Origin: Medicago truncatula
Lineage: Eukaryota; Streptophyta; Magnoliopsida; Fabales; Fabaceae
Assembly: GCF_003473485.1 (NCBI RefSeq)
Contig: NC_053043.1
Span: forward strand, 29,984,576 to 30,048,575
Direction of reading: 5' to 3'
Length of the DNA stretch: 64,000 bases
Below, in pieces: positions 4,941 to 37,018 of this stretch. Position 1 is the stretch's first letter. Each line of letters begins with the position of its first letter. Under the pieces are notes generated by a model. That model was not told where the DNA came from. It did not search any database and saw only the letters and a list, made by a program, of their open reading frames with translations. The position numbers were made by a program, and so were the translations under genes.

Positions 4941-5001
4941 AGTTTCCATTTAACTTTTATATTTGCCTTTTCTGTGTGTATGTGAAGGTTTTTATCTAAA
5001 A

Positions 5002-7300
5002 ATGGCTAATGAAGAAGTTCAGTCACCTAATGATGTTTCTCCGACACAACAAACTCAAACAGCTCTGGATGAGACGAATGTCGAAAGTCAAGAACCTGAA
5101 GCCGTTCGTGAGCCTAGTGTAAGTCCTAACAAAAGAGGACTCAAATTTGTTTATTGGCGTCATTACAACAGGCAGAAGTTCGATGGCAAGTTTAAGGCTA
5201 TTTGCAAATATTGCGAGAAGAAACTTGGTGGTGAGACAGCAAATGATACTACTCATTTAAAGGACCATCTTTCAATATGTGCAGCTCGCAATAAAAGAAG
5301 TCCAATGCAAATCTTGCTTAAAGTTTCTGAAGTGCCGGGGAAGGGTAAAGAATCATTTGTTGCTGGAACTTATACTTTTAATCAAGATATTTCTAGGACT
5401 GAACTTGCGAAAATGATCATTCTTCATGAATACCCCATCATGATGGTCGACCATGCTGGTTTTCGAAGCTTTATACATTCTCTTCAACCTTTGTTCAAGA
5501 TACCTTCTCGCAACACCATGAAGAATGATATCATGAAGTTGTGTGAAAGCGAGAGAGCAAAGCAAATGAATTCATTTGGTAAGAATAAAAGTCGCATTGC
5601 AATAACTACCGATATGTGGACTTCTAGCAATCAAAACAAAGGGTACATGGCTGTCATAGCTCATTACATCGATAATAATTGGAATTTGCAGAATCGAATC
5701 ATAAGGTAAATATTACTTCAGCTTTTTTTTATAGCTTTGAAATTTGCTTGTTAAAGTTCTACTGACATGTTGAAAGATCTTTATAGCTTTGAAAGCCAAT
5801 AAATGATGGCACGGTTCATTAGTTCTGCTTGTTAAAGTTCTGTTGACATAGGGAGAATTATTACTTCATTAGTTTTGCTTGTTAAAGTTCTATTGACATG
5901 TTGAAAAATCTTTATAACTTTGAAAGCCAATAAATGATGGCACGGTTTGACCATTTCTGCATCAGTACAATTAAATTGCTTTTACTTCTGTAATGGCTTG
6001 TTTAATGTTTGATTCATACTATAATTTAGATTCATTATGTTTATATTTTAGATTCATTTATGTGCCTGCACCACATATTGCTGAAGTGATTGGTGATTCT
6101 CTATCAAAATGTTTGTTTGAATGGAATATTGATAGAAAATTGTCGACATTAACTGTTGATAATTGTAGCACCAATGATGCTTTGATTGAATATTGATTAA
6201 TAAGTTTGGAGTTGTGTCTTTTGTTTTAGATGGTGAATTGTTTCATATGCTTTGTTGCGCTCACATCTTAAACTTGATTGTTAAAGATGGTATGCAAACA
6301 ATTGGAACTTCGATTGAAAAGATTAGGGAAAGTGTTGGTTATTGGGTTGCAACACCTAAGAGGGAGGAGAAATTTAAAGATACTTGTCAACAATTGGGTA
6401 TGACCTATGAAAAGAAGCTTGCACAAGATTGTAGGACAAAGGGGAACTCTGCTTATTTGATGCTTGCTTCTGCATTGCCTTATGAAGAAGTTTATAAACG
6501 CTGTGCTATACGTTTTAGTCATTATAAATCCTTACCAAAAGATTGGAAAGTGGCAAGAGAAATTTGTGAACATTTGAAATTGTTTTTTAGTGTTTTTTAG
6601 TGTCACCGAGTTGTTTTCAGGTACTAAGTATCCAACTTCAAACCATTATTTTCCCAAAATTTGTGAAATAAGGTTGGCTTTAAGAGAGTGGCAAATTTTT
6701 TGTAGTGATACCATTTGGAATATGGAAGGAGATATGATTGTGAAGTTTGACAAGTATTGAGGTTTGATTAATGGGGTGATGGCAATAGGGGCTGTTTTGG
6801 ATCCTAGATATAAAACGCAATTGCTAAATTACTTCTTCCCTCTTATTTATGGTAGTGATTCTTCTAAAGATTTGAAAAAGGTGAAGAAAATGTGTGAAGA
6901 TATGATTTTTGAATATCAAGCAAGTGATAATATGGTTAGTAGTGAATGCAGTGCATCAACACTAGATGGTCCTTATGTTGAAAAGCAAGATTGGGAGCAA
7001 GGTTATATGAAATATGCGATGGAAAATGCTTCAACTAATGGGAAATCAGAATTTGTTTCTTATTTAGAAGATGGCATCTTGGTGAACAAAGAGAATAATG
7101 AGTTGCTTAAAATTTTTGATATACTTGGATGGTGGAAACAAAATGGTGTGAAATATCCAACTTTGCAAAAAGATTGCAAGAGACTTTTTGGCAATTCCAA
7201 TCTCCACAGTTGCTTCGGAATATGCATTTAGTACTAGTGGCCGTGTTGTAACTCCACAACGTAGTAGGTTGAAGGAGCAAGGTAGTACATTTAATGTTAA
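5002..7300 (+). pseudogene. hAT transposase (BED zinc finger, Ac/Tam3-type), broken
   Basis: The first exon (5002-5708) starts MANEEVQ and encodes a BED finger: W at YWRHYN, then the C-x2-C pair CKYC, then H-x4-C in HLSIC. It continues into the conserved ITTDMWTSSNQNKGYMAV block of plant hAT transposases. After an intron with a 135-bp direct repeat, the middle part reads TVDNCSTNDALIEY, CCAHILNLIVKDG and CEHLKLFF. The C-terminal dimerisation domain runs from AIGAVLDPRYK to LGWWKQNGVKYPTL, then in another frame ASEYAFSTSGRVV. At least one in-frame stop (after DALIEY), a broken stretch near 6600-6760 and a frameshift near 7165 show it is inactive. It would need an outside transposase to move. 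Confidence 0.85.
5738..5953. repeat. Direct repeat of about 83 bp inside the hAT intron
   Basis: The stretch around 5746-5820 (cttgttaaagttct, then tttgaaagccaataaatgatgg) recurs at 5878-5953, with a third partial copy of its first part at 5829. All copies lie between the first two transposase exons. Confidence 0.75.
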
Positions 7301-7426: not shown

Positions 7427-7725
7427 GGGTGTGTTTGTTTCAAGTTTACCAAATTTATTCCTAGGAATAACATTCCTTGGAATATAAAGATGGGAATTTT
7501 ATTGTAAAGAATTTAGAAAAAATATGTTTGGTTACCTTTATAATATTCCTAGGAACCATAAAAATAAAGATTATAATAGGTAAATTATTTATGAATTTAT
7601 TCTCATCTCCATGGGAACTTTATTCCCACCCTTTTCGTTGAGAAATTTTTTCTATTCCCAGGAACATTTTATATCCGAGAATAAAATTTAGTAAACTTGT
7701 AACAAAGGCATATACAAACACACCC
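7427..7725. mobile_element. 299-bp MITE inserted in the hAT 3' region
   Basis: The ends are inverted repeats: gggtgtgtttgt on the left and acaaacacaccc on the right, with weaker pairing continuing inward (caagtttac...gtaaacttg). It is flanked by the triplet GTA on both sides, suggesting a 3-bp target duplication as in PIF/Harbinger elements, although that family prefers TTA/TAA. There is no coding capacity. Confidence 0.75.
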
Positions 7726-7961: not shown

Positions 7962-8048
7962 GTTAACTCAGTCCCTTAGATGTTCAATAATATCTGCGAT
8001 CATACCCGCAAATCATTACAGGTCTGTTGAAGACTCATCACAGTTAAC
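7962..8048 (-). ncRNA. Box C/D snoRNA, 18S rRNA methylation guide
   Basis: Seen on the minus strand: a perfect 6-bp terminal stem (GTTAAC/GTTAAC at 8043-8048 and 7962-7967), box C GTGATGA (8035-8041) and box D CTGA (7968-7971). One base upstream of box D is a 13-nt antisense element complementary to 18S rRNA ccCTTAGATGTTC (plus strand 7973-7985). A second element, complementary to the 18S stretch ACAGGTCTGT (plus strand 8018-8027), sits upstream of a D'-like CTGT. In 18S rRNA the two targets are almost adjacent, near the 3' major domain. Known: box C/D RNAs with fibrillarin, NOP56/58 and 15.5K methylate the base paired to the fifth position before D or D'. By that rule the D target is the first U of CCCUUAG. 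Length of about 87 nt is normal. The rRNA matches are from memory. Confidence 0.85.
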
Positions 8049-8160
8049 AAATAAACATCCCATTTAATCAAATGATCCAAAACAAAAATGGCTTTCAAAA
8101 TTACAGTTTTGTTACCAGTTTCACAAAAAAGTTACTTAAATTAATCATAAAATTAGATAG

Positions 8161-8260
8161 AAAGAGGGGATTGCTCATATTCTATGGGTGTAAAGTGTCT
8201 GTCATGCCAATAGCATTCAGTACGAGGAATTTTTTATAATCATCACAACCAACCTCTTTC
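8161..8260 (-). ncRNA. Box C/D snoRNA, 18S rRNA guide (U33/snR55 target region)
   Basis: The minus strand shows a terminal stem (cctcttt at 8253-8259 with aaagagg at 8161-8167), box C GTGATGA at 8240-8246, D' CTGA at 8217-8220 and a D box read as ATGA at 8175-8178. The 12 nt directly before D are complementary to the 18S stretch ATTCTATGGGTG (plus strand 8179-8190), a conserved segment methylated in yeast and animals through snR55/U33-type guides. The D' guide contains a complement of TACGAGGAATT, whose target I do not recognise. The ATGA box D is non-canonical, but a second snoRNA in this cluster uses the same variant. Confidence 0.7.
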
Positions 8261-8639
8261 AATCTTAACCTACTCTAAAAATCAATTAACAAAAAACAAA
8301 GAATTTAAAGCTTTTTTGAATTGAAAAAATGTTGTGCTGATATTTAACTCCAGACTCGTGGGTTACAAGAGATGAAGCTGATAGACAACACCAAATATAT
8401 GAGCTTCTTTTTTCAGACTCTAAATCCAATTAAAAGGGATAAGAGAATCCTTAGTTAAAAACTCAATGAAACTAAACAACAATAAACTACAATGATTTAA
8501 CAGAACATAACAGAACAACGATTAAACCATTCTAATCCAAATTTTTCGGCAAAGATTACCGTAAAAATACAAAAATATGATAATATTGAAACATAATCAA
8601 AGCCTCATTGAATCCATTAATGTCATATGAATGTCCCTT

Positions 8640-8735
8640 CACCAAGTAGGTTCTCCCTGTAAACAGGGGCTTGGCTCCAAAACACCTCAAACAATCGGAT
8701 ATAGTATAATCATAGGCCAATCAAATTAACTAACA
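8640..8735 (-). ncRNA. Possible diverged box C/D snoRNA or RNA hairpin
   Basis: The minus-strand words around 8690-8715 (TATGATTATA, then TATCCG) resemble the C-box part of the snoRNA at 8931-9025. TTGGC and GCCAA could form the end stem. Next to it, 8642-8674 folds into a hairpin (CCAAG/CTTGG and CCCTG/CAGGG). No rRNA complementarity was recognised and the D box is not clear. It could be a decayed duplicate or chance. Confidence 0.3.
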
Positions 8736-8785
8736 ACATAAAACACACGGAAATAAAAAAAACGTGAATTGTTTAGTTTATGTTA

Positions 8786-8869
8786 GGCTCAGAATATATT
8801 ACAGCTCTCTCAGTCACGAATTTTCAGAAGCAGAACTGGCATAAAGCTGAATAATTTGTCATCACAGCC
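8786..8869 (-). ncRNA. Box C/D snoRNA, 25S rRNA guide
   Basis: On the minus strand a terminal stem GGCT/AGCC (8866-8869 with 8786-8789) encloses box C GTGATGA (8859-8865) and box D CTGA (8789-8792). An internal D' CTGA is at 8824-8827. Upstream of D' is an 11-nt element complementary to GCAGAACTGGC (plus strand 8830-8840), which matches a conserved 25S/28S rRNA stretch (CGCAGAACTGGCGATG). The D+5 rule points to the A of the CAG in that site. The guide before the terminal D box (complement of AATATATTACAG) has no target I recognise. Length 84 nt. Confidence 0.75.
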
Positions 8870-8930
8870 AAATAAAACATAATTAAAAATTGAAACAAAC
8901 AGAATTTAAAATATAAAAGAAATAAATTAA

Positions 8931-9025
8931 AATTTGGCTCATATTAAGAAATTCAACCATTATTCCAATATACTTCATACAAAAAACTCAGAAGCGCGGA
9001 TAAAATATAATCATAGCCAAAAATT
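8931..9025 (-). ncRNA. Box C/D snoRNA with two guides for neighbouring 25S rRNA sites
   Basis: The minus strand has a long terminal stem (AATTTTTGGCT at 9015-9025 with AGCCAAATT at 8931-8939), box C ATGATTA (9008-9014), D' CTGA (8988-8991) and box D ATGA (8939-8942). The element before D is complementary to TTAAGAAATTCAACCA (plus strand 8944-8959). The element before D' is complementary to AAGCGCGGATAAA (8992-9004). In 25S rRNA these run together as GAAATTCAACCAAGCGCGGGTAAACGG, so the RNA pairs with two abutting segments; the one mismatch is a G-U wobble. Boxes C and D each depart from consensus by one base, but the guide match is strong. Confidence 0.75.
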
Positions 9026-9063
9026 AGTGTTAAAAATTGAAATCTAAATAAATAATAATACAA

Positions 9064-9209
9064 TGATGTGGCGAATTTTTTTAGAGGCATAAACATTGAA
9101 TGGTTAAAGCACCACGTGAAAACCGCCTATGATTCAATTTGTGCCTCTATGACTAGCTTTTGATTTTCATGGAATATATTCGAAAACAAGCTAAAGGTGT
9201 AGTGAGGCA
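9064..9209 (-). ncRNA. Candidate H/ACA snoRNA
   Basis: On the minus strand a 5' hairpin is closed by TGCCTC/GAGGCA (9204-9209 with 9142-9147). Its upper stem is TAGCTT/AAGCTA, and an internal loop could serve as a pseudouridylation pocket. A hinge follows, then a 3' hairpin closed by GGCG/CGCC, immediately followed by ACA (9067-9069) three bases before the end. Total 146 nt is typical for the class. The hinge lacks a perfect ANANNA box H, and an alternative long stem (AGAGGCA...TGCCTCT across 9082-9147) competes. The position within a C/D snoRNA cluster supports the call. Confidence 0.45.
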
Positions 9210-9414
9210 AAAATTAAAACATAAAGAAAAGAAAAGCAAAACAAATTGGCAATAGCTTTGACATAGATCAACAGAGTTTGGTATTCAATGAATTAACCAT
9301 AGCATACTGCTGATTCATAACGTGTATACTACCGATAATTCATTAAAATAGCAAACATGTATAAATTGATAAAAGAAACGACTATGAGTATAAATTATAG
9401 ATCTACAGCAGCCA

Positions 9415-9615
9415 GTGATAAACCCTAACTATGATACAAAGAATTGTTGAGTTGAGAGAGAAGGGACGCTGGTTATTGATTTATAGAGGCGCATCAAAAC
9501 CCTAAAAATACCAATTTCAAGGGCTGAGTCAAGAGAGTGAAGAATGGATCCATAACTGGCACAAAAGCCCACTTTGAATGAAGACTATGTTTTGGAAATT
9601 ACTCTTTGGGCCTCT
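9415..9615 (-). promoter_or_regulatory. Probable snoRNA cluster promoter: telo-boxes and site II motifs
   Basis: AAACCCTAA-type telo-boxes lie at about 9420-9428 and 9498-9505. TGGGCT (minus strand, 9566-9571) and TGGGCC (9607-9612) match site II elements. Known: in plants these two motifs together mark promoters of snoRNA and ribosomal protein genes. They lie upstream of the cluster in minus-strand direction, with no protein-coding gene starting here. Confidence 0.6.
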
Positions 9616-10599
9616 TGAATTGCTCACATACCCCTGAATATATCTCTTGTTATTTTCGAATAATCGAGACTTATGGTGAGCAATAGGTGAATGTGTAATT
9701 GAAACACTATGAGTATATTATAGATCAAAGAAAGATATTATAAGATTAACTAACGAAGTATATTATAGGTTAACATTTCCCTATTTTTAATACTTTCCTG
9801 CACAACAAATTATTTTCAATTCTAAAATCGAAAGAACCGTGAGAAAAATCAATAGCAAAAAGAAAATTAAGTTAACTCCTTTTAAGAACTGCGATATTTT
9901 TACCATTTTTTGTTCTTTTTAAGTCAACTTATGTGTATCATTTGAAATTGTAAAATAAAATAAAATATATGCAATCAAGTTTTTTTTTTTTGTGGTGAGT
10001 CAAGTTTAACACATTATAAAATTCTCTTTTGCGAAAGTTTAAATTTTTTTTAACAAAGGATTAATTAAATATGAATTTTTATGTTTTCTGAACTTAAAAA
10101 TTCATATTTTGTTAAAGAAATTTAATTTTTTTTGGACAGATTATTACAATATTCGAAACATTACTGCAAAAAAATCATTCAAAAATTTGAATGATACGCA
10201 AGACCTAAATTAAAGGCAATAACAAAATTTGGACTGAAAATTTTTCGGAGACCGAAAGTGGATGAAAAATTCAGAGACTAATATGAAAAGTAAAAATATT
10301 TATAATGGTAAAAACATATTCAACCCAAAAATCAAATTTAAAATTTAAACCCTCCGATCTTGATCGAACTGCTGAGATATGTACTACATGCGATCAATCA
10401 CAAGATTGTTGTACCTATGACTACCCTAGATCAGTTTAGTACAGCTCAAAATGCTGGTAGGTTTCTTGTGGAAAACATGTGATAATGACCATTGTCTACA
10501 CATTTTCTAACGACTGCTCTAATGTTTCATTTGAACAATGCAAGTGAAATGAGTTTCCAAACCCCACACTCATCAAATTAACTCTTAGAACAATAATAC
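9616..10599. other. AT-rich intergenic DNA
   Basis: No open frame, fold or repeat boundary was recognised. It separates the minus-strand snoRNA promoter from the plus-strand aspartic protease-like gene. Confidence 0.45.
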
Positions 10600-10607
10600 T
10601 TATAAAC
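10600..10607 (+). promoter_or_regulatory. TATA box of the aspartic protease-like gene
   Basis: ttataaac lies about 34 bases before the ATG at 10635. If used, transcription would begin almost at the start codon, giving a very short 5' leader. Confidence 0.45.
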
Positions 10608-10634
10608 ATCTAATTCCCATCTCTAAGTGTCAAA

Positions 10635-11927
10635 ATGAATATTCTAGTGACATATTTTTGTTGTATAATTTTATTAACAATTCAACTATCTCATTCTGCA
10701 TCTCCCTCACCTTCTCCTTCTAGATCAATCATTAGTATCCCACTATATCACAAGAAAATGCTCAATAGCACCTATATAACCACTAGAGGAATTCAACATC
10801 CTCAAATGGAAACTACATCAGATATATACCCTCTAAATGATGCATATGCAATATTTTTATGGATTGGTACTCCAGTACAAGTTGTATTTGTTATGATAGA
10901 CATAGGAAGCCCAATTTCATGGTCACAATGTGATCTATGTAATAATTGTTACCCTATGCAACGCCCTCCTTTTAATACTAGAGCATCAAGTACCTTTAGA
11001 GAACTTGGTTGTTACACAGATACATGTTTGATCACAATGATGAGGGAAGTTTTTGGAAACTGCACTGGATGGACATGTAGATATAATGTGAAATATGGTA
11101 CCAAGGATGAATCTCATTCCTTTGGTGCAATGGTGACTGATACACTTAATTTTGAACATTCCAATACAGAGATTAAGAATTTCATCATTGGTTGTGGAGA
11201 TTCATATGAGGGTTCATTTAGGACTCAATTCTCAGGTGTTCTTGGTTTAGGACGCGGTCCGCTTTCGGTTCAAAGTCAGCTCAATGCAAAGGCCTTTTCT
11301 ATTTGTCCTGTAAGTCAAGGATCAGAGAATCCATCATCTCTTGATTTTTATGATACTCCACCTGAAATTAACCAACATGGTGTTGTTGGTGATAATAGTT
11401 CCATTATGGTTCCCTTAAGTGAGAACAGTGGATACCCTTTTTATTACTTTTTGCAATTTGTTGGTATAAGTATTAATGGGTTTATGTTGGATATTCAATC
11501 TAGAGTTTGGGGTTACGGATTGAACTATGATGGTGGTGTTATTATAGATATAGGAACAGTGCTAACTTATTTACCAAGTGATGCTTATAGTGTGTTCAGG
11601 TCAGAGATGCTTAGAACAAATCATAATCTTACAGTGAAGCCAAGATATGAAGGGTTAGAGTTTTGTTATAAAGATGATTCATCTAATGTATTTCCAACTA
11701 TTGAACTTCACTTTCAAAATGGTAATATTGCAGGTGAAAATTTTGTGTCTTACAAGTTGAACAAGAAACAACTACTCTTAACACCAGAAGAAGGCACTGT
11801 TTGTCTATCATTTGCAGAAGGAAAAAGTTCTGCTCTTACTGTGATTGGAAGCAACCAACTCCAGGGAACTTTATTGACGTATGATCTAGTCAATGAGATC
11901 CTTGTTCTTACATTTAATAAGTGTTAG
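10635..11927 (+). CDS. Aspartic protease-like protein (pepsin A1, CDR1/nodulin-41-like), atypical active site
   Basis: A single uninterrupted frame of 430 codons, the usual length and intronless structure for CDR1-type plant aspartic proteases. Residues 1-22 form a signal peptide (hydrophobic IILLTIQL ending in HSA), so the product is probably secreted or vacuolar. The N-terminal TAXI/pepsin lobe holds the first Asp at about residue 89 in MIDIGSPISW. Cysteine-rich DLCNNCYP and the flap region follow, with VLGLGRGPLSVQSQL near 202-216. The second Asp is at about 305 in IIDIGTVLTYLP. Normally these motifs are DTGS and D(S/T)GT; here Ile replaces the second residue in both. The Asp pair is kept, but the hydrogen-bonding fireman's grip residues are lost, so activity may be weak or the protein may act as an inhibitor-like or binding form. 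The start is supported by the signal peptide and a TATA box just upstream. Confidence 0.88.
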   Translation: MNILVTYFCCIILLTIQLSHSASPSPSPSRSIISIPLYHKKMLNSTYITTRGIQHPQMETTSDIYPLNDAYAIFLWIGTPVQVVFVMIDIGSPISWSQCDLCNNCYPMQRPPFNTRASSTFRELGCYTDTCLITMMREVFGNCTGWTCRYNVKYGTKDESHSFGAMVTDTLNFEHSNTEIKNFIIGCGDSYEGSFRTQFSGVLGLGRGPLSVQSQLNAKAFSICPVSQGSENPSSLDFYDTPPEINQHGVVGDNSSIMVPLSENSGYPFYYFLQFVGISINGFMLDIQSRVWGYGLNYDGGVIIDIGTVLTYLPSDAYSVFRSEMLRTNHNLTVKPRYEGLEFCYKDDSSNVFPTIELHFQNGNIAGENFVSYKLNKKQLLLTPEEGTVCLSFAEGKSSALTVIGSNQLQGTLLTYDLVNEILVLTFNKC

Positions 11928-15800: not shown

Positions 15801-18800
15801 AAAAACAGAGAAGGGAAGTAAGAGAGTCACAAATGGCGGTGCAAAGAGGAGCTGCGAGCGCAAGGAGGAGTTGTGGTCGCAGGTGGTGGCGCCTTTCCAC
15901 ACGATCAGGGTTTTTTGTTTTAAAAAACGGGGCATTCGAGCAAAACACAGTCAGGACGAAATAAAGTCCATTTCAACACCTTTCCACGCACACGATCCCA
16001 CCGGCAACTCACGATTTCACCCACAACAGCGCACTCCAGCAGTTCTGGTCATGTCATAACACGGACCAAGGGCCTTGGGAGGCAGGGATTGTACAATCCT
16101 ACGACGCAGCTCACACAATCTTGACTGCACTGCAAACCAGAGTTCCGATTGATCCAAGACTAGTGAAAGTTGCAACAAAAAATAAACCACACCTTTTTCC
16201 TATTTTTCATCCAAATTTCAGATCCAAACCTTTCAGATATCTTCTACTGTTTTTTCTTTGATGTTTACTAGATACCCCTATTAGGTTGGTACCCTAACAT
16301 TTACCACTGGATTTCATATCCAACAGTAACCCAGGCAACAATGCTGTAGAGGACTGCAGACTGCAGTGTTCCCCCTTCTTTCAGTATCTTCATTATATTT
16401 CTTTTATACCCCACACCACACTCTTTTTTAAAATAAAAAAGGAAAAGAAAGGATGGTTATATGGATGCAAATCTCAACTGAAGTTTTGCGTGAAAACGTC
16501 AAGAGTCTGACAACTTAATTACATTGCAGGTCAGAAATATATACATGTAACTTAATTGGAAAGTATAACATACCACAGCAGGTATGTCAAGTCCACGAGC
16601 AGCAACATCAGTACAGAGCAATATCCCTTTTTCTGCTTTGCAAAAATTGAAGAAGGTACTTGTCCGGGAATTCTGCTTTTGTTTTCCATGAATATTTAAA
16701 CAGTCTAATCCAATGAACTTAAGAAGATCAGCATGGAATTTGACAGAGTTGCATGAAGAGAAAAACACCATCACTTTTTTTGATTGGTATCTCTTCAAGA
16801 ATGAATACAGAACAACAAAACGTTTGGCACAGGGAACAACAACATAACCCTGTTCCAACCCTTCAACAGTGACCTGCATCGATGCGGAACGTATTAGATA
16901 CTATGATAATGCTGTAAAGAAAATTTCAAAGGATGTGATAGAAGTAGGTAGGCATCACCTTTTCTCTCCCAATATCTACATCAACATAGACAGGAGGTGT
17001 CTGAAAAGACAAGCGGGCAAGATCCTCAACCTGTAATTAAACAGGAAAGTATTTCAAAAAACAGAGAATAACTAAGCAATATGCTTGCATTCCCAAGATT
17101 TCCCACTTTCAAAAATAGCATCCATTAACTTCAAGTATATCCAGTGAAAATAGACATTCACGTGACAATTTAAAATTTAAAATTGAGTGGAGTTGACAAA
17201 ATTGAAACAAGGATTTGCTTTAGGGGAAAGGTTCATGATGAAAAATAGAAATTAACAACAAACCTTCTTTGTTTGTGTGGCTGAAAACAAAGCTGTTTGC
17301 CTTTTCTGTTAGAAGAAATGAGAAGCAGATAATTAGCCAAGCTCATAAAATTAGGTAAGACCAAAATCTAGATATAAAAAGCTGCATTTAGCATACATTC
17401 AGGAAAACTAGGGAAGATAATATGATGAGTATAGCAAGTTAGCAACATTGTCCCAGCCTAAAAACCTTGGCACCGAACCTTTAAACGTATTAACAAGATA
17501 CCACAAATATTTGAAACCTTTACAAGAACAGATATCCAGAAAATATACCTACCTACTAGAAGAGAAGCACTATTTTTTTGTCAGAAAAAAGACCAGTACT
17601 TTTAGAATGTTACAAGTTTGGATGCACGCAGCTACATATTCAAAATCAATACACTCACTAGCAGTATTAAGTTAACTGACAGATGAAAAATACTAGCAGA
17701 ATAAACTACTCTTTTGGAGATGAAAACCTTGTGTTATTTAGCATCTTGTTGACAAATTACAAAAGTAATCATACATATATTGGTCAAAAAGACTCTACAG
17801 GTTTCAAAACTTCCTTCTGAAAAAAGTTACCTATACATGTTTCTTCTTTACAAATCTTTGAAAACATATAATATAATCTATTTGGTTGCATCGCAAACTT
17901 CCATTAATTTTCATCAACAGTACAAAAGACACTGGAAATTATCATTCTGAAGCTATCTACTGCTAATTAATTTTCAAATGTACTTCCCTCTATATAATGA
18001 ACACTTATAATTGCTTAAGTATTTTTCATGGGGCTGGACAAGACTAAATTAAACTCCAAAAGTTCCAATACCTTTGGAAGTATATTAAGGATCTGCTTCA
18101 TTTCCTCCTCGAAGTTTGATTCCAATATCCTGTCTGCTTCATCAATCATGAGACACTGTCGAATCATGCAAGAGCTCAGAGTAAGAAACCCCCAACACCA
18201 GAAGTTATAATGATAATGATATATAAACTAACATAGAAGGAAATACTCCATGACAACCAGAGAATGACTTCTCTGTTCCCATCAATGAAAAAAAAAGCAG
18301 AGATAAATAATAGGACATATACAAAAGAAAAAGGGTGACTGATGCAAGCTCCATACACAATGGAGAATAAATCAAAGTAAAAGAAAAGACCCTTATCGAG
18401 AGAAACAGCTTCTCTGCACAGCCAAAACTACTCAACAGAAATCATGAATACCTCTCATATCCCCCATCACTTACTCTAAAACCAACCACCTCACCTTAAT
18501 TCCTCTTAATGGGATTATCAATGTTAATTGATCTATCATATGATATTTCAGTACTACATATTGATGCTTGCATAGAAAAACAACTAATTACTTTCCCCAC
18601 AATTTGATTTTATGTTTTATTTTCCTTCTAAACAACAAAAGGATGTTCTAAATTCAAACTGGTACCAAGAGAGGACTGATAACTTATGAGTTAATATTTG
18701 TCACATACTTCCCAGTAATTTGTCTACAAAACCATTACAATGAACGAAAAGCATGAACAGATATCAACATTGTTTGTCACTTGTCCTGTCAGTGTCGGTA

Positions 18801-20396
18801 CTTTTTAAATCCATGTAATTAAGAATCAAATCAGTTACTTACCTTCAAGTTTTTATATATGAATCCTTTTGTATTCTGAAGGTGGTCAAGAAGACGACCA
18901 GGCGTTGCAATCAACAGATTTACTCCTTTAACAATGCGCTCAGCTTCTCCCTTTCTACCCACACCACCAATAACCTTTCCAAGAGTTTGCGAATGATAAC
19001 CTTTCATTAGTTCACTTGCCACAGCGTGTGTCTGAAAAACCAAGTCGCGAAATCAGTCAATATGGACAACCAAATATAATAAAAAACAAGAAAACAAATA
19101 AAAAGTTGTGTAAATCAAAATAAAATTAAAACGAGGAAACGAGCATGCGTGTATACCTGAATGGCAAGCTCTCTAGTTGGACAAATGACGATAACACCAG
19201 TTCCATTACGAGGTGTAAATTGCACATTGTACAACAATTCCACAGCTGGAATTAAAAATGCAAGTGTTTTACCAGAACCCGTCCTAGCAGCACCAAGAAC
19301 ATCCTTTCCCATCAATAGTGGCGGAATCGATTTCGCTTGAATCTGCATTCCAACATTCATTGAAGTAAATTATGAGTCGGTTGATCGAGTTATTTAAATT
19401 ATCTACTACCATAAGCACTTATGAGACTTTTTGGGATAAATTATGAAAACAATGTCTAACATGTTCATAACGTGGTTTCACCTAATTTCCATAATACGAA
19501 GACAATTTGACTTTATTTACGATCTGATTAAGTTATATGAGACTGTTTGGGAGAACATACGAAATAAGCTTACGACAATTTCATAAGCTTTTTTCAACTT
19601 ATTTTCATAAATTCTTCAATACAGCTTATAAAACAACTTAAAAATTACAAAAACAATTTAACATTAGGTATCATTTTGCTATAAAAATACTTTATGCTAG
19701 ATTATACAATAAGGGTTTGTTTGCATTAGGCTTATTTTGAGCTTATGCAAGCTTATGCAAATAAATAAGTTTTTATGTTAATTTATAAGTTCTCATTAAC
19801 GAAAATTGTATCTTTATAAACTGTTTTTCCATAAACTACATTTACAAACTTATGAAGCTTATTTATTTGCATAAGCTGTTTTGCATAAGCTTAAAATAAG
19901 CCTAATCCAAACGGGCTCTAAGAAATTATAATCAAATTAAACTGTTTATCTAAACATGGCTTAAAACCTTCATTTTATTACTACCTATTTGATTAATTAG
20001 TAAAAAAAATAAAAAAATTACAGCTCACAGTTATTAATCAAAAAATGTTACCTGAGTCATATGGGTAAAACTCATAGCAGCAATAGCCTGAGAAGTACGT
20101 TCAGATAACCCTAGAGACGAAAAAGACTCAGTACTCAGAATTCCAGAAGGCAAAACATTTTCAACTTTCTTCTCTTCTACTTCTTCGACTACGTCGTTGC
20201 CGTCTTTATCGTTATTCTCTTCTTCTTCATCTTCAGATTCTGTGTTTTCATTATTCTTCTCCTTTTGTTGTTTTTCAAGTTCTTGTTCCAATTTACGAGA
20301 TCTTTTTCTCTTGCGAAGCTTCTTATTCTTCTTCTTGTAACTGTCGTTGATTTGGTTTTCCGGTGAGGTGTGGTGGTCGTCGTCGGATTCGGCCAT
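12890..20396 (-). CDS. RH51: DEAD-box ATP-dependent RNA helicase, RH51/RH27 type
   Basis: Twelve exons on the minus strand, all with GT-AG borders and all a multiple of three: 20052-20396, 19157-19342, 18843-19031, 18072-18155, 17264-17305, 16959-17030, 16574-16873, 14442-14480, 14241-14345, 13902-13970, 13683-13808, 12890-13006. They give 557 residues, close to Arabidopsis RH51 (about 570). The N-terminus is acidic and lysine-rich (nucleolar type). Motifs: Q motif near [10 protein letters not shown], motif I ARTGSGKT (about 134-141), Ia PTRELA, Ib [14 protein letters not shown] (245-248), III SAT (276-278), [26 protein letters not shown] (423-431). The C-terminus [17 protein letters not shown] matches the RH27/RH51 (yeast Has1) group, which acts in 40S and 60S ribosome assembly in the nucleolus. 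No defect is visible. A telo-box lies upstream near 20495. Confidence 0.93.
14481..16573 (-). other. Large helicase intron filled with repeats
   Basis: This 2.1-kb intron between the motif V and DWIVQ exons is far longer than its neighbours. It holds a diverged direct repeat at about 14729-14945 (each unit contains a ggagaggtaag purine tract and ggaaccaatt(g/a)ggcac), a near-identical tandem pair at 15440-15750, and an unclassified GC-richer block at about 15830-16130. None disturbs the splice sites. Confidence 0.7.
15440..15750. repeat. 157-bp tandem duplication in a helicase intron
   Basis: Two almost identical units start with ttattgctaagcttt at about 15440 and 15597 and end in gaggcccaagc. 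They differ by only a few bases, so the duplication is recent. Confidence 0.85.
19405..19921. mobile_element. Two MITE-like copies in helicase intron 1
   Basis: 19711-19921 has long inverted ends (left: attaggcttattttgagctta; right: the complement of attaggcttattttaagctta). To its left, about 19405-19700 shares internal words (gagactgtttgggagaa, tttcataagctttttt, aatacagctta) with the element in the first kinesin intron at 37.88-38.17 kb. Both have no coding capacity. Confidence 0.6.
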
Positions 20397-20489
20397 GATT
20401 GGTTTTGGTTTTGGAATTGGTGAAGCAATGAAGCTGCTGGTTCTGGTTGTGCTGTGGTTTTTGTGAAACAGTGTCTAGCTGCGGTGTGT

Positions 20490-20505
20490 GTGTGTTAAAC
20501 CCTAA
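20490..20505 (-). promoter_or_regulatory. Telo-box upstream of the DEAD-box helicase
   Basis: aaaccctaat lies about 100 bases upstream of the helicase start codon. The telo-box is a known element of plant genes for ribosome biogenesis, in line with the predicted role. Confidence 0.5.
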
Positions 20506-25808: not shown

Positions 25809-25955
25809 CTCCCTCCGGTCTCAAATGTAAGCAACTTTTCACTTTTTAGGTTCATTCAATAAACAATGTATGTGGTCCATATTATAGACTATGTACATCA
25901 TTTATTGAATGAATCTAAAAAGTAAAAAGTTGCTTACAATTGAGACCGGAGGGAG
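25809..25955. mobile_element. Stowaway-type MITE, 147 bp, TA target duplication
   Basis: Nearly perfect inverted repeats run from ctccctccggtctcaa on the left to ttgagaccggagggag on the right, with about 60 bp paired per arm. TA stands on both sides. This is the Tc1/mariner-type pattern. It lies between two B3 genes inside the Helitron, so it inserted there or was carried along. Confidence 0.85.
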
Positions 25956-35414: not shown

Positions 35415-37018
35415 TCTTCACAGATAAACAACAAAAATGACAAACAACGCATAATGTCAAGTACATAACTAAACAACAATAAGAGATCCTTAAAAGAATG
35501 GGATTATTTAAAGAGCAGCATAACATAACTTTATGATCTTTAAACATCATAACAGATGCAAGATAAACACATACTTTTAGTGATATTAAACACATCAAAA
35601 ATTAAAACAAACAAATGAAGTGGAAGAGTTAATAAAGGTTCCATCTTTATGAAATGATCTGGAACTAACAAAAGAACACGATTTTGGATCTTAAAAATCT
35701 AGCAACATACACACAAAAAAACAGAGAGTCTAAGTGAATCTAAACACATCAAAACTTTCTAAATATACCTTCTAATTTGTATTGCTTTACTCTATTCTAT
35801 CTCTGATTGTAAAAGGGTGGGTTAGTACCATCCTAATTTGATTTATTTTCTGGTTGCTATAGTGCTAGGCTGGCTGTCTTCGTTAACCAAACTATTTGAT
35901 TAAAATGGCTAGGCATGTATATTATTATTCTTTTCTCTTGGCCCTTCTAAAGATGCAAATTTCTTTGTGAACACAACACAATAATTAGTAGCATGTAATC
36001 AGAAAAAGGATATTATTTCTGCTGAAAAAGGATACGATTTCTGCTAAAAATCTAGCAACTTCTTAAAAAAAAAACACATACTTGAAGTGAATATAAACAC
36101 ATCAAAACTTGTAAACACTTCAAAGCAAAAAAATGACATCTACAAATCAACAAAAAATTGAACCTTGAAGTGAAAGAACACAAATCACGAGCATGAAGTG
36201 AAACAAAACATAAAAAAAATTTGAAAAAAAATGGCTAGGCAGAATCACTTTTAACTATCTCTAGAAATACTTTATAAACATCAAACAAATATCAGTATAG
36301 TAGATCTAGAACAATTCTTCTAGTGCTATTCGAAAAAAAATTCTCAAGATAGTAAAACAAAAAAACATAGATCTGTTTTACAAAACAATAGTTTATGCGA
36401 TTTTTGGCTCATAAAATTTGAGATTTGACAAAAAATGGCCAGCAACAGAAACAGAGTATGAAGAAGTGAAACCTTTGAGCAGCGAAGAAGTGATGTTTTC
36501 GTTGAATTTTTTTTGAGAGAAAAGTATGAAGAAGTTATGAGAAAGAGAGTATGAAGAAGTTTTGAGAGAAAATGAAGTAGTAGTAGACCAGGTTGGTAAC
36601 AATCTTTTGTGCGAGTAATAACCTTATTTGGAGTAGACCGTTGGACAATAGGTTGCTTTGTCAGCTGGAACCGAGAAACCATGCAATTTGTTGATATTAC
36701 CAAATTTAACCCTGTTTAGTTTATGTATTTGCATACTGAAAAAGGGGTAGAAATCTCATGGTAAGAAAAATAGAAGGAATCAATTCCTAATACAACTACT
36801 TGTTACATATGTACCCTTTAATAAAATGAATCAACAACAGTGTAATGAAAAAGGGTAAAAAAGTGAGAGTGCGGTAAAAAACTCAGGGTTCTCCCATTTC
36901 AAATTTTATTACCACATTACCCTTCAATAAAGTGAAATTAAAGTGTAGTTAAAAAAGGTAGAAGCAGGGACAGTTGTGCAATTTTGACAGGCATTTGTTT
37001 TCTCATATATATAATAGA
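35415..37018 (-). other. Helitron 5' noncoding region
   Basis: AT-rich, with no open frame of note. It presumably holds the promoter of the RPA gene and ends at the TC terminus at 37017-37018. Confidence 0.5.

Follow-up and report, generated by a model that had tools for sequence, protein, structure and literature searches.

A minus-strand cluster of box C/D and H/ACA small nucleolar RNA genes in Medicago truncatula, with a candidate for an undescribed H/ACA family

In a 64,000-nucleotide (nt) stretch of Medicago truncatula contig NC_053043.1, here called the window, seven units resembling small nucleolar RNAs (snoRNAs) were found at 7962-9210, all on the minus strand and comprising both box C/D and box H/ACA types. 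With Rfam 15 as the reference for known families and the curated gathering score of each family as the threshold, six of the seven were matched by family covariance models. The minus-strand snoRNA gene cluster that the sequence-only reading had placed at 7962..9209 was thereby confirmed and, since these six units belong to known Rfam families, the cluster is of a kind already described. The new element is the seventh unit, designated X, and as a candidate only; the other six are known genes. We read the locus, with a probability of about 0.93, as a non-intronic snoRNA gene that yields its guide RNAs from one RNA polymerase II (Pol II) precursor. The order and common orientation of the units, the lone promoter-like region, and plant precedent indicate that the transcript is probably single and polycistronic.

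All five box C/D units scored above the gathering cut-offs of their covariance models, where at least four such units had been proposed. In the direction of transcription, these were U36a (RF01302; 8935..9019, 87 bits against a gathering score of 45), with guides for 25S A2221 and G2237; a unit at 8782..8873 (72.7 against 45 bits), in which a guide was found and the target site number was inferred; a unit at 8602..8717 (56.9 against 36 bits); snoR8a (RF01284; 8168..8252, 85.1 against 37 bits), with guides for 18S U1264 and A1579; and SNORD25 (RF00054; 7962..8048, 68.6 against 39 bits), with guides for 18S G1434 and U1448. Judged by its predicted targets, the last of these is snoR19 of Arabidopsis. 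Guide matches to conserved 18S or 25S ribosomal RNA (rRNA) had been claimed for three units; seven guides, each with its box and spread over four of the box C/D units, were found to match rRNA, the predicted sites also including 25S A1143. The box C/D unit outside these four gave no above-chance match in six rRNA stretches from other species, a search that did not cover small nuclear RNAs, and it may be an orphan. Separately, a contig from a viral collection (L001:4059-4305) ends in a fragment of 18S rRNA and is probably a chimeric assembly.

The mixed composition that had been suggested was borne out by these five units together with the box H/ACA unit snoR97 (RF01215; 8327..8437), which scored 79.3 against 40 bits. 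Its fold reaches 5' to approximately 8462, with the region 8324-8462 forming two hairpins, and its ACA box lies 3 nt from the end, ACA being followed by TTT at the end of the model. When the 3' hairpin was searched for rRNA targets, the best score was equalled by 48 of 60 shuffles. Additional units were also sought in the spacers at 8440-8605 and 8045-8170, where Rfam matches were sub-threshold and at chance level. The fold of 8090-8160 was not unusual (z score, 0.82); that of 8465-8600 was more stable (z, -2.23), but no box set could be read in it, and it aligned to the paralog at 46%, so it was not counted as a unit.

The telo-boxes and site II motifs noted earlier upstream of the cluster were present, two of each, accompanied by a TATA box, within a span of 216 to 402 nt upstream of unit X. 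The site II motifs were TGGGCC at 9607..9612 (plus strand, 402 nt upstream of X) and, from the motif scan, TGGGCT at 9566..9571 (minus strand). The telo-boxes were TAGGGTTT at 9497..9504 and, again from the motif scan, a second at 9420..9427, both on the minus strand. The first aligns with a telo-box of L020, one of the paralogous clusters of the same genome (L020-L024), and the TATA box, TATAAA at 9480..9485 (minus strand), a presumed Pol II promoter, stands in the context CTATAAAT, which is identical in L020. Among 1,247 overlapping 600-nt control stretches from the window, at least one telo-box together with at least one site II motif occurred in 5, and two of each in none. As in TeloSII genes, telo-box, site II, and TATA elements all lie upstream of the first unit. 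Of 40 Arabidopsis snoRNA loci outside introns, 37 are reported to have telo-boxes (PMC3022908), and the same promoter type is described for polycistronic snoRNAs (PMC4660826). In L020 itself, site II is missing and one additional telo-box lies within the cluster, which weighs against a universal promoter rule.

On this arrangement, Pol II would most likely start downstream of the TATA box at approximately 9480, with telo-box and site II elements controlling the snoRNA gene as they do ribosomal protein genes, and one precursor would run past 7962. Box C/D and H/ACA proteins would bind each unit, and nucleases would remove the AT-rich spacers to leave seven stable guide RNAs. Conserved positions in 18S and 25S rRNA would then be 2'-O-methylated under the guidance of four of the box C/D units, while snoR97 and unit X would serve as pseudouridylation guides or be orphans.

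The units could instead be part of a protein-coding or long non-coding host gene, within one of its introns or exons. However, no stop-to-stop frame of at least 70 amino acids exists within 7976-10613, the nearest coding regions with Pfam matches, hAT-type transposase pieces and a TAXi-type aspartic protease, are on the opposite strand, and the telo, site II, and TATA elements stand directly upstream of the units; a host gene is therefore considered very unlikely. Equally improbable is a cluster that has decayed and fallen silent, retained through duplication alone. Against this stand the seven guides that match rRNA and have their boxes, as well as the upstream region with its pair of telo sites and pair of site II motifs. 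Furthermore, the units are far more similar to their L020 counterparts than the spacers are, indicating that selection acted after the duplication, on either copy. The non-intronic snoRNA gene remains the preferred reading.

Unit X (9065..9210, minus strand) is a candidate undescribed H/ACA snoRNA with an H-like box, ACAAAT, at 9137-9142 and an ACA box at 9067-9069. That X is an H/ACA snoRNA is supported, not proven. It is conserved as the units are and not as the spacers are, with 90% identity to the L020 copy over 144 aligned positions compared with 45 to 72% for inter-unit spacers. The ACA box is present in the window and in L020, and high conservation stops approximately 3 nt past it. The L020 copy folds as hairpin-hinge-hairpin-tail without any constraint, and X is located within a run of snoRNA genes. 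An H/ACA candidate at the 5' edge of the cluster had been proposed from the letters alone; its conservation in a paralogous cluster supports this proposal, without proving it.

Several observations weigh against the H/ACA assignment and would suit a different kind of conserved hairpin RNA, or conserved sequence with only a resemblance to an H/ACA snoRNA. X has no credible Rfam match. The H box consensus is ANANNA, and the H-like boxes of the three X copies (ACAAAT, AGAAAT, and ACAAAT) lack its final A; because of this departure in the last base, X is called a candidate and not a member. The ACA box reads ATA in L021, and the L021 copy does not adopt the hairpin-hinge-hairpin fold (z, -0.83). 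For the window copy, minimum free energy is reached by a competing hairpin through the middle GAGGC, with a single-hairpin z of -3.82 versus -3.28 for the first H/ACA hairpin. The three sequences showed little covariation: 3 pairs were changed on both sides, at least as many were seen in 32 of 500 shuffles, and shifting the structure by one column gave an equal number. Matches to rRNA were no better than chance: the best for hairpin 1, to 28S helix 69 in L011, was equalled by 13 of 60 shuffles, and that of hairpin 2 by 38 of 60. Given the conservation pattern and the fold of the L020 copy, these alternatives appear unlikely, and an H/ACA snoRNA is still favored. A covariance model of X (R1) recovered its three source copies among 11 sources; its next match, at 35952-36058 of the window, was weak, with an expectation value (E) of 0.016 under a rough calibration.

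Between X and the promoter-like region, a leader hairpin (9275..9360, minus strand; -27.2 kcal/mol) occupies the place held by snoR134 in five paralogous clusters. The stretch was chosen by eye and post hoc; on that basis its z was -5.06, with 1 of 200 shuffles as stable, and it forms the long, near-perfect stem that is a criterion for microRNA (miRNA) precursors. No Rfam or miRNA family matched above threshold, the best being MIR2863 at 14.6 against 94 bits, and alignment to L020 was poor (50%). The hairpin could represent a relic that has diverged, a small palindrome inserted here, or a precursor resembling that of an miRNA. snoR134 was absent from Rfam matches to E 10 in 9040-9480. The best match of a five-sequence profile in the window was only a 24-nt possible trace of its 3' arm at 9249..9272 (minus strand), suggestive at E 0.9 over the window or 0.03 over 2.3 kb, with a rival match at 1395-1419 (E 1.4). 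It is conceivable, if improbable, that snoR134 was lost here and replaced by a miRNA-like hairpin, such that one ribosome-biogenesis promoter makes box C/D guides, H/ACA guides including X of an undescribed family, and a new small regulatory RNA.

The hAT-type pieces at 4996-7231 (plus strand) comprise separate frames for zf-BED, a hAT-like RNase H, and a dimerisation domain, and end approximately 730 nt from the last snoRNA. Adjoining the cluster is a short element (7434-7706) with 33-nt inverted ends that are 82% complementary; window positions 7506-7722 are 92.6% identical to L025:4406-4620, in a stretch where a SNORD25 cluster also stands. The TAXi-type aspartic protease frame, a Pfam match, spans 10614-11927 (plus strand). 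Farther away are DEAD-box helicase frames (DEAD, Helicase_C) at 16499-20474 on the minus strand, with a telo-box at 20497-20504, and MIR2593 family matches at 25825-25939 on both strands (scores, 109.9 and 100.9; cut-off, 96.2), from which that stretch is close to a palindrome. MIR2593 is a Medicago family and, like the plant snoRNA families, fits a legume. A MIR2587 family match was also seen at L022:1736-1834, approximately 500 nt upstream of the L022 snoRNA cluster.

Within this one genome, plant snoRNA clusters are seen to gain, lose, and swap units, with guides held constant and spacers free to diverge. In three further SNORD25 clusters (L025-L027), the SNORD25 gene and its flanks resemble those of the window (mean column identity, 93% over 111 columns), yet SNORD25 stands beside snoR136, snoR31, or snoR83, whereas in the window it follows snoR8a. 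Unit X adds a candidate H/ACA snoRNA without an Rfam 15 match, and the remainder is a useful annotation of known genes. The polycistronic TeloSII clusters of Arabidopsis and rice are alike in their one-way snoRNAs, short spacers, and upstream telo-box, site II, and TATA elements. Arabidopsis sno-miR775 (PMC4660826) is alike in that a single TeloSII promoter serves both a snoRNA and another stable hairpin; unlike sno-miR775, the leader hairpin of the window is a putative small RNA source that matches no miRNA family above threshold.
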